A stretch of DNA of 64,000 bases from Gemmatimonadota bacterium (GTDB taxonomy: Bacteria; Gemmatimonadota; Gemmatimonadetes; Gemmatimonadales; Gemmatimonadaceae). Below, piece by piece: positions 29,334-33,255 of this stretch. The notes below the pieces were generated by a model. It was given only the letters and a program-made list of their open reading frames with translations. It did not search any database and was not told where the DNA came from. A program made the translations under genes and the position numbers. Location: contig DAHUXM010000028.1 in NCBI GenBank assembly GCA_027307165.1, forward strand, positions 62,001 through 126,000, given 5' to 3'. Numbering within the stretch: the first letter of the stretch is position 1; each line of letters opens with the position of its first letter.

Positions 29334-30389
29334 ATGCCGGAAGTAGCTTTGGACACCCAATCCATGTCCCGCGCCGAGATCACCACACCGGAAGTCATCG
29401 CCGACGAATCTGTCGTCGAGCTTTCGCTCCGACCGCAGAAACTGGCAGAGTTCATCGGCCAGCCCAAGGTCAAGGACTCGCTCCGCATCTACATCGATGC
29501 GGCGCTCGCGCGGCGCGAGCCGCTGGACCACACGCTCTTCTTCGGCCCACCGGGACTTGGCAAGACCACGCTGGCGGAGCTGATCGCGCGCGAACTGGGC
29601 GTGAACATCCACTCGACCTCCGGACCCGCGCTGGAAAAGCCCGGCGATCTCGTCGGGACGCTCACCAACATGCGCGCCGGCGACATCCTCTTCATCGACG
29701 AGATTCATCGTCTGCGTCCGGTGATCGAGGAGTTCCTTTATCCCGCGATGGAGGATTACAGGATCGACATCAGGTTGTCCGAAGGCCCCAAGGCACAGAC
29801 GATCACGATGCCGATCGAGCGTTTCACTCTCATCGGCGCGACGACGCGGCTCGGCATGCTCACAGCACCGCTGCGCGCGCGTTTCGGGATCGAGCAGCGA
29901 CTCAATTACTATCCGGTGGAGGCGCTCGAGTTGATCGTTCGCCGCACTGCAGAAGTGCTGAAGACGGAGATCGACGTCCACGGCACGCACGAGATTGCGC
30001 GTCGCTCACGCGGAACACCGCGCGTCGCCAACCGTCTGTTGCGCAGAGTGAGAGATTACGCCCAGGTCCGCGCCGATGGAATCATCACGTTGCCGGTTGC
30101 TGACGAAGCGCTGCGGATGCTCGATGTCGATCAGTTCGGACTGGATGACATGGACTCGCGCATCCTCCGCACCATCATTGAGAAATTCGAAGGCGGTCCG
30201 GTAGGAATAACGACCATCGCTGCAGCTGTCGGCGAGGACGCTGGAACGATCGAGGAAGTGTACGAGCCTTTCCTCGTGCAGAACGGATTTCTCCAGCGCA
30301 CTCCGCGCGGACGAGTCGCAACTCCGCAGGCGTACCGTCACTTTGGTTACACGCCACCGGCGCAAGCACAGCAAGCCAGTTTGCTCTGA
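29334..30389 (+). CDS. ruvB: Holliday junction branch-migration ATPase RuvB
   Basis: A AAA+ helicase motor of 351 residues. [12 protein letters not shown] opens the core; Walker A is [12 protein letters not shown], Walker B is [10 protein letters not shown], sensor 1 follows in [11 protein letters not shown], and the arginine finger in PLRARFGI. The C-terminal winged helix (about 265-340, [13 protein letters not shown]) binds DNA. It has its own upstream palindrome and possible promoter and ends at a strong hairpin terminator. Confidence 0.97.
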
Positions 30390-30406
30390 AATCGGCCCCG
30401 AATGCA

Positions 30407-30438
30407 AAGAAGCTCCGAGGAATTCCTCGGAGCTTCTT
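30407..30438. terminator. Bidirectional hairpin terminator after ruvB
   Basis: A 14-bp perfect stem (AAGAAGCTCCGAGG with CCTCGGAGCTTCTT) encloses an AATT loop, 18 bases after the ruvB stop. The ends are A- and T-rich, so it can act on both strands, ending ruvB rightwards and the tRNA-like gene leftwards. Confidence 0.8.
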
Positions 30439-30439
30439 C

Positions 30440-30461
30440 GTAGCAGTGCTGCCACTGCTAC
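30440..30461. repeat. Second perfect hairpin beside the ruvB terminator
   Basis: GTAGCAGTG and CACTGCTAC pair perfectly around a CTGC loop, directly after the terminator. It lies between the terminator and the tRNA-like gene, in its 3' trailer on the minus strand. It could be a processing signal or part of a structured RNA. Confidence 0.5.
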
Positions 30462-30525
30462 ACGTCACCGTCAATGGTCCAAGGAATATACGACCATCCA
30501 CCGCATCCGTCAATCAGCCAGCCCG

Positions 30526-30609
30526 TGCCAGGGACGAGACTCGAACTCGCACGGCCTTCCGGCCAAGCCATTGACGGTGACCTGTGTCTACCAATTCCAC
30601 CACCCTGGC
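30526..30609 (-). tRNA. tRNA-Leu-like gene with abnormal anticodon arm
   Basis: An 84-nt class II cloverleaf: 7-bp acceptor stem (GCCAGGG/CCCTGGC), a D arm of tRNA-Leu type (GTGGAATTGGTAGACAC), a long variable arm (GGCC-GGAA-GGCC), a T arm (GCGAG-TTCGAGT-CTCGT) and discriminator A; CCA is not encoded. The anticodon stem GGTCA/TGGCT contains two G-U pairs and its loop reads CCGTCAA. That puts C at position 33, normally U, and GTC (an Asp anticodon) at 34-36. No Leu anticodon can be placed with a paired stem. It may be a pseudogene, an altered tRNA or a tRNA with a special role. Confidence 0.65.
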
Positions 30610-30723
30610 CCGGGTTTGCGCTGACGGAACTGGTATCGCGACACAGACTATCAACAACCTTGCGTTCTGGCTGACATCTCCACCATACAGACAGATTGAT
30701 CGCCAAGGAGTAGCACGGCCACA

Positions 30724-30744
30724 GCAGGATTATCATTATCCTGC
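30724..30744. promoter_or_regulatory. Imperfect palindrome upstream of queA
   Basis: GCAGGAT and ATCCTGC arms flank a TATCATT centre, ending 11 bases before the queA ATG. Nine of ten paired positions match across the 21 bases. It overlaps a possible -10 region (TATCAT) and may be an operator or a leader hairpin. It does not resemble a preQ1 riboswitch that I can fold. Confidence 0.4.
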
Positions 30745-30755
30745 ATAAGCCTCCC

Positions 30756-33255
<2,500 letters not shown>

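Follow-up and report, generated by a model that had tools for sequence, protein, structure and literature searches.

A leucine-type tRNA with an aspartate anticodon and a covarying antisense element downstream: a candidate two-RNA module in Gemmatimonadales

What is a tRNA gene with the body of a leucine tRNA and the anticodon of an aspartate tRNA doing in a bacterial genome that already encodes ordinary versions of both? The gene lies within the 64,000-nucleotide stretch of a Gemmatimonadota contig that we analysed (hereafter, the window), among the following features:

29334 to 30389, plus strand: ruvB, the convergent neighbour (Pfam RuvB_N, AAA_lid_4, RuvB_C)
30526 to 30609, minus strand: class II tRNA with a leucine-type body, A73, anticodon GUC, C33 and no encoded CCA (ARAGORN, Rfam RF00005, comparison with ordinary Leu tRNAs, check of A73 and T-loop)
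30566 to 30582, minus strand: anticodon arm GGTCA-CCGTCAA-TGGCT, with the anticodon GUC at 30573-30575 (Rfam alignment)
30756 to 31790, plus strand: queA, the divergent neighbour (Pfam Queuosine_synth)
31796 to 32938: tgt, following queA (Pfam TGT)

Anatomy of the window tRNA

ARAGORN called the gene as tRNA-Asp(gtc) at 30525-30609 on the minus strand, and Rfam RF00005 matched 30526-30609 over its full length with 43.7 bits (gathering score 29, E 1.8e-7), the lowest score among the 48 tRNA genes of the genome. According to both, the cloverleaf is complete and has a long variable arm. The initial annotation had described a leucine-type body with C33, the anticodon GUC and a stem GGTCA/TGGCT with two G-U pairs closing the loop CCGTCAA; ARAGORN, the Rfam alignment and the comparison with ordinary leucine tRNAs confirmed this anatomy, with all five stem positions paired. 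Specifically, the tRNA has the leucine D-arm (GG.GGAAUUGGUAGAC.C), A73 and the D-loop/T-loop contacts, and the covariance model places GUC, and no leucine triplet with A35, at the anticodon position. Because the genome also encodes five ordinary leucine tRNAs (UAA, CAA, GAG, UAG and CAG) and, elsewhere, a normal tRNA-Asp(GUC), we conclude that the window tRNA is surplus. A tRNA-Leu split by a group I intron was considered and rejected; the gene is an uninterrupted 84 nt.

As to what the gene means, the initial annotation had offered two suggestions that fared differently. Its sequence is still best explained by the first, misreading of Asp codons if the tRNA is charged with leucine. The second, a dead gene, lacks support: the tRNA has an intact body, a compensatory change sets its acceptor stem apart from that of a copy in the same genus, and across the order the bodies at such loci stay intact as the anticodon arm and its antisense change together (see below). 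The loss of U33 is real but no isolated oddity, because C33 is found in 12 of 38 such loci, the window locus among them; C33 should weaken decoding.

An antisense element that changes with the anticodon arm

The initial annotation did not mention what lies downstream of the tRNA, and it is this region that changes the meaning of the finding. A repeat search detected an 18-nt inverted repeat (94%) between the anticodon arm (30568-30585) and positions 30460-30477, within a set of features that would form a separate transcription unit:

30508 to 30513, minus strand: -35 hexamer TTGACG of a predicted antisense RNA promoter (consensus match; same position in related loci)
30485 to 30490, minus strand: -10 hexamer TATATT of the same predicted promoter (consensus match)
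30400 to 30480, minus strand: predicted antisense small RNA of about 75-80 nt (start and end inferred from the -10 box; folding z = -6.8)
30464 to 30477, minus strand: antisense to the anticodon arm, 14 nt perfect (17/18 over 30460-30477; covaries with the arm in other genomes)
30440 to 30461, minus strand: first hairpin of the predicted small RNA, GTAGCAGTG/CACTGCTAC (folding)
30407 to 30438, minus strand: 16+16 palindrome, predicted terminator common to the convergent ruvB (100% complementary arms, folding)

Along the minus strand, the order is thus tRNA, TTGACG (30513-30508), 17 nt, TATATT (30490-30485), antisense (30477-30464), hairpin and a 32-nt palindrome that abuts the end of the convergent ruvB. 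The sigma-70-like promoter TTGACG-17-TATATT agrees with the consensus at 10 of 12 positions with a 17-nt spacer, and 0.2 sites of such quality are expected by chance in the region; of note, promoters and terminators at this and the related loci are consensus matches only. The palindrome is without a long T-run and was unlisted by a consensus terminator scan. Nearly all of the folding z value of the predicted small RNA, calculated against shuffles, comes from its two hairpins, and much of the antisense stretch lies outside stable stems in the predicted fold. Across 29500-31700, only the tRNA scored above the Rfam gathering score, and the antisense region matches no known small RNA in Rfam.

We analysed this layout at 38 distinct loci. 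In 34 of them, the longest perfect complement to the arm in the locus's own downstream 250 nt had a mean of 10.8 nt, compared to 6.0 nt (sd 1.1) for swapped partners, a control that ignores relatedness among loci; the locus's own upstream sequence gave 6.0 nt and direct repeats gave 5.7 nt. Seven valine matches joined the set after this statistic, and the antisense is present in them too. In all 38 loci, the predicted duplex averaged -43.1 kcal/mol for the own partner and -30.2 kcal/mol for swapped partners, and the own partner ranked first in 26 of them. A complement of at least 9 nt to the arm is found at 31 of the 38 loci vs two of 94 ordinary tRNAs. Because 36 different anticodon stems occur among the 38 loci, nearly each with its own matching antisense, the signal is not that of one inherited sequence. 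Complementarity to the arm is short or shifted at seven loci: in six of them (four with a His anticodon, plus L080 and L081), the variable arm is the main pairing partner, and most of these six also have a short additional match at the anticodon loop; L078 (GCC) pairs poorly, and its antisense would better fit a GUC loop. Overall, the sequences strongly support predicted pairing between arm and antisense at these loci.

These data also bear on the idea of a dead tRNA-Leu gene in which template switching copied the neighbouring inverted repeat over the arm. The repeat lies 90 nt away in the geometry expected of such a mutation. Yet at least 35 genomes have the arrangement, at unrelated sites and with different sequences; the tRNA bodies and stems remain intact, and promoter and terminator recur as well. 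We therefore rejected such a scar as extremely improbable, the layout recurring with co-varying sequence.

Could the complementary segments instead be parts of a single transcript? The antisense lies on the tRNA's strand, 30-60 nt downstream of the tRNA, which would also suit complementary 3' (in some loci 5') parts of one long pre-tRNA that steer processing by RNase P or RNase E, with no separate small RNA. Leader hairpins that match the anticodon loop fit this as well: 17 of 38 loci, nearly all of family f1, have a hairpin at 35-60 nt before the tRNA with a loop complementary to the locus's own anticodon loop (UCGCAG for CUGCGA, UCACAG for CUGUGA, UCGCGG for CCGCGA), and swapped leader loops gave a mean complement of 2.8 with a maximum of 6. 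This hairpin, which was not seen at the window's own locus, may hold the anticodon loop of the precursor until RNase P removes the leader. However, most loci have a near-consensus promoter, spaced by 17 nt, in the interval separating tRNA from antisense, and the antisense would form the 5' end of the RNA predicted to start after TTGACN-17-TATNNT; a precursor-folding device is, therefore, very improbable in our assessment. In the sister-family loci L212, L213, L214 and L234, a conserved leader element, GGCACGTTGTGARANCGCGTC, is found 40-60 nt upstream; part of it can pair to the anticodon loop with G-U pairs, and the element may be a promoter or a leader structure.

As another alternative, the tRNA might sponge or stabilise a small RNA that acts on other RNA targets, decoding then being irrelevant. 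C33 in a third of the loci, the lack of constraint on anticodon choice and a small-RNA locus that persists without the tRNA in one genome (G002, see below) all speak for this possibility. A sponge, however, need not keep A73 (present in 37 of the 37 copies with an intact acceptor stem), the standard T-loop (34 of 38 loci) or all five anticodon stem pairs (fully paired in 34 of 38), and the antisense tracks the tRNA arm locus by locus, pointing to the tRNA as the target; we consider a sponge improbable. A few copies may be impaired: in L211 (G383), a hairpin-rich insertion of about 40 nt interrupts the T-arm while arm and antisense are intact, and L212/L213 lack the usual T-loop.

Occurrence across Gemmatimonadales

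The layout is present in at least 35 Gemmatimonadales genomes, 20 in the window's family and 15 in two sister families, which amounts to a patchy distribution (about 35 of ~288 genomes); one genome, G066, has three loci. Carriers were searched for with patterns combining the leucine D-arm with a non-leucine anticodon in the family, the phylum and (A35 anticodons) the order, and non-tRNA and Pro(UGG) matches were removed before counting. Outside the order, two matches (L235 and G294) were obtained among ~170 genomes of the phylum, L235 without antisense. The 38 loci carry 11 non-leucine anticodons, for Arg, Ala, Val, His, Asp, Gly, Glu, Pro and Thr: GCG (14 loci), CGC (6), CAC (5), GUG (4), GUC and GAC (2 each), and GCC, CUC, CGG, GGU and GGC (1 each). 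All intact copies have the leucine body and A73. No Leu or stop anticodons were in the sets found, partly by design because the patterns required a non-leucine anticodon and fixed bases at positions 37/38. In the output of gene finders, such genes pass for ordinary tRNA-Asp, tRNA-Arg, tRNA-Ala or tRNA-His.

Among ~80 genome_contigs stretches, Gemmatimonadota alone showed an antisense to the arm of 9 nt or longer, or else a long variable-arm match; comparable matches in other phyla were split tRNA-Leu genes or lone odd tRNAs without antisense, and pattern matches resembling intron-split tRNA-Leu were set aside. A viral origin was rejected: 44 IMG/VR stretches with a Leu-like D-arm and an odd anticodon had no convincing antisense, the two 9-nt antisense matches both being in sequences not called tRNAs. 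A search for Ser-type bodies, covering A35/U35 anticodons only, returned one tRNA-Ile(GAU) without antisense (L305), in a genome (G015) that also has the leucine-type locus L080.

Other tRNAs of odd type were seen along the way. Leu-type tRNAs with the Pro anticodon UGG and no antisense are present at L079, L082/L115 and L208 (G134, G150, G356), and a short basic ORF (M.KKK/EKK...GP...L...GDW) starts ~30-50 nt downstream of all three; Leu-type Pro(UGG) calls were also made in Planctomycetota (L101) and Hyphomicrobiaceae (L167) genomes. In Azospirillum cavernae (L093:4050-4400), two near-identical Leu-type Ala UGC tRNAs lie ~250 nt apart with no antisense.

Copies from the window's genus capture the module in different states. 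G000 and G003 have it intact; in G001, the ruvB-queA gap is empty; and in G002, the 5' part of the tRNA is gone while the promoter and an antisense fitting a GCC (Gly) arm remain. In G003, the tRNA at the same site has a different arm and a matching antisense: in the stretch paired in both copies, positions 28, 31 and 39 are changed on both sides relative to the window (G-C to A-U, A-U to G-C and U-A to C-G), and positions 31 and 39 also pair together within the tRNA. Because the G003 tRNA start adjoins the queA start codon, a promoter of its own is not obvious there. The differing states of G000, G001, G002 and G003 indicate gain and loss of the module and anticodon change within one genus, and this variation at the site fits what would be an accessory module.

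The loci adjoin housekeeping genes and no recognised mobile elements, and no shared protein-gene partner was noticed when ORFs were compared by eye (Pfam was used for the window neighbours only), the flanking ORFs varying by locus. At the window locus, the module adjoins the queuosine genes queA and tgt (30526-32938), and GUC is a queuosine-type anticodon. TGT needs the motif U33-G34-U35, which C33 breaks, so that the window tRNA might escape queuosine modification. Because other loci have other neighbours, the proximity to queuosine genes is probably a coincidence.

A candidate miscoding tRNA and its anti-anticodon RNA

The loci thus unite an intact leucine body, a non-leucine anticodon, a promoter-like site and a locus-specific covarying antisense, and of the two RNAs the antisense has the stronger recognisable promoter. 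Our working hypothesis, which we favour modestly, is that a leucine-charged miscoding tRNA is held silent by a dedicated anti-anticodon RNA in an RNA-RNA toxin-antitoxin-like module. RNA 1 would be a leucine tRNA body bearing the anticodon for a frequent non-leucine codon, here GUC, which reads Asp GAC/GAU. In E. coli, LeuRS recognises its tRNA by A73 and tertiary contacts and does not rely on the anticodon (PMC9976931); because LeuRS ignores the anticodon and A73 is kept, we expect by analogy that these tRNAs are charged with leucine, which would then be inserted at Asp codons. Leucine at common codons should be harmful. RNA 2 would be a small RNA from its own strong promoter directly downstream; its 5' end, antisense to the anticodon arm, would open the arm and cover the anticodon and so block decoding, and the tRNA/antisense duplex would probably be exposed to RNase III. 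A stable tRNA would outlast a small RNA that is turned over, so that the miscoding tRNA would be freed once the module is lost or shut down. That G002 keeps an antisense after loss of the tRNA is as expected for a toxin-antitoxin pair. From this arrangement we infer that the RNAs are transcribed, that the tRNA is leucylated, miscodes and is toxic, that the antisense silences it, and any role in addiction or defence.

We regard the two-RNA module as real and previously unreported, and a silencing role as likely; a literature search, with most subscription papers and all preprints outside its scope, returned no report of such a tRNA/antisense pair. A toxin-antitoxin function is our leading candidate reading of the sequences. 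The broader proposal of an RNA-only toxin-antitoxin (or anti-phage suicide) class, in which a miscoding tRNA acts as toxin on frequent codons, an anti-anticodon RNA acts as antitoxin and paired changes reprogramme the codon target, is more tentative, and we rate it at slightly below an even chance. In codon usage ranks from the 48 ORFs of the window, the codons read by the module anticodons rank as follows: GCG 1, CGC 2, GGC 4, GAC 7, GCC 8, GAG 9, GTC 10, CCG 11, GTG 12, ACC 19 and CAC 26. That the commonest codons are read supports a toxin but is not decisive because both the GC bias of the genome and the design of the search pattern would enrich such anticodons; GC-biased drift of the loop would likewise favour high-use codons in a GC-rich genome. 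C33 at 12 of 38 loci, and the position of the module beside housekeeping genes and outside recognised mobile elements, also count against the toxin-antitoxin reading.

The same sequence evidence would be expected if the antisense sets the dose of a leucine-inserting tRNA and its release under stress diversifies proteins, mistranslation then being regulated and adaptive rather than toxic. In favour of this reading, an upstream region of its own seems to precede the tRNA and at many loci includes a structured leader, and natural allo-tRNAs able to cause missense, with diverse anticodons including GCG and GUC, have been described without a toxin role (PMC7609411). Nevertheless, the anticodon varies freely even within the genus (GUC in the window; an antisense fitting a GCC arm in G002) and the presence of the module is patchy, both of which are more in keeping with selfishness or conflict than with a fixed physiological programme; we consider regulated mistranslation unlikely.

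If the miscoding tRNA is silenced as proposed, cells would keep a loaded mistranslation device, with leucine poised over their commonest codons and silenced by an RNA-masked anticodon. The tRNA itself would join the list of toxins, antisense control of a tRNA at its anticodon would be demonstrated, natural reprogrammable anticodon/antisense pairs would be available for genetic-code engineering, and mistranslation as a weapon or switch would become testable.

Several known systems share features with the proposed module. Type VIII toxin-antitoxin systems consist of an RNA toxin and an RNA antitoxin, e.g. SdsR/RyeA. In logic, these and CreTA (PMC8501985) are the nearest relatives, both partners being small RNAs as in the proposed module, and a complementary RNA partner from a linked gene is present in our sequence as a predicted RNA. 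CreT, like the presumed toxin of the module, attacks translation through tRNA function; it is a mini-mRNA that sequesters a rare tRNA, and its promoter is shut by Cascade under the guidance of CreA, an antitoxin with CRISPR-repeat-like elements (PMC8501985). In contrast, the presumed toxin of the module is itself a tRNA reading common codons, and its partner, of a different design with a direct antisense and hairpins, would pair with it directly. In type I systems such as hok/sok, a stable toxin RNA is paired with an antisense RNA from its own promoter that targets a loop. The module as proposed would resemble them in having a stable toxin RNA, a presumably short-lived antisense from its own promoter and loop-targeted pairing; it differs in that there is no toxin peptide and the toxic molecule would be the tRNA. 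The 3'ETS of leuZ is a tRNA-spacer sponge that pairs with other small RNAs, and the T-box riboswitch reads the charging state of an ordinary tRNA and controls a downstream gene. Both, like the module, involve an RNA made beside, or pairing with, tRNA sequences, whereas the module RNA would pair with a miscoding tRNA and controls no gene in cis.

In tRNA type, the nearest relatives are the allo-tRNAs, Ser-type tRNAs with non-Ser anticodons, GCG and GUC being among the commonest, and a 12-bp acceptor branch (8/4 or 9/3); the text of the review does not mention antisense (PMC7609411). The module shares with them a body suited to an anticodon-blind synthetase and diverse non-cognate anticodons, and differs in its Leu-type body and ordinary 7-bp acceptor stem, the window tRNA having neither the Ser-type body nor the 12-bp branch. 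Neither CreTA and type VIII systems nor allo-tRNAs combine a miscoding tRNA with a dedicated anti-anticodon RNA, the combination that we propose for this module.
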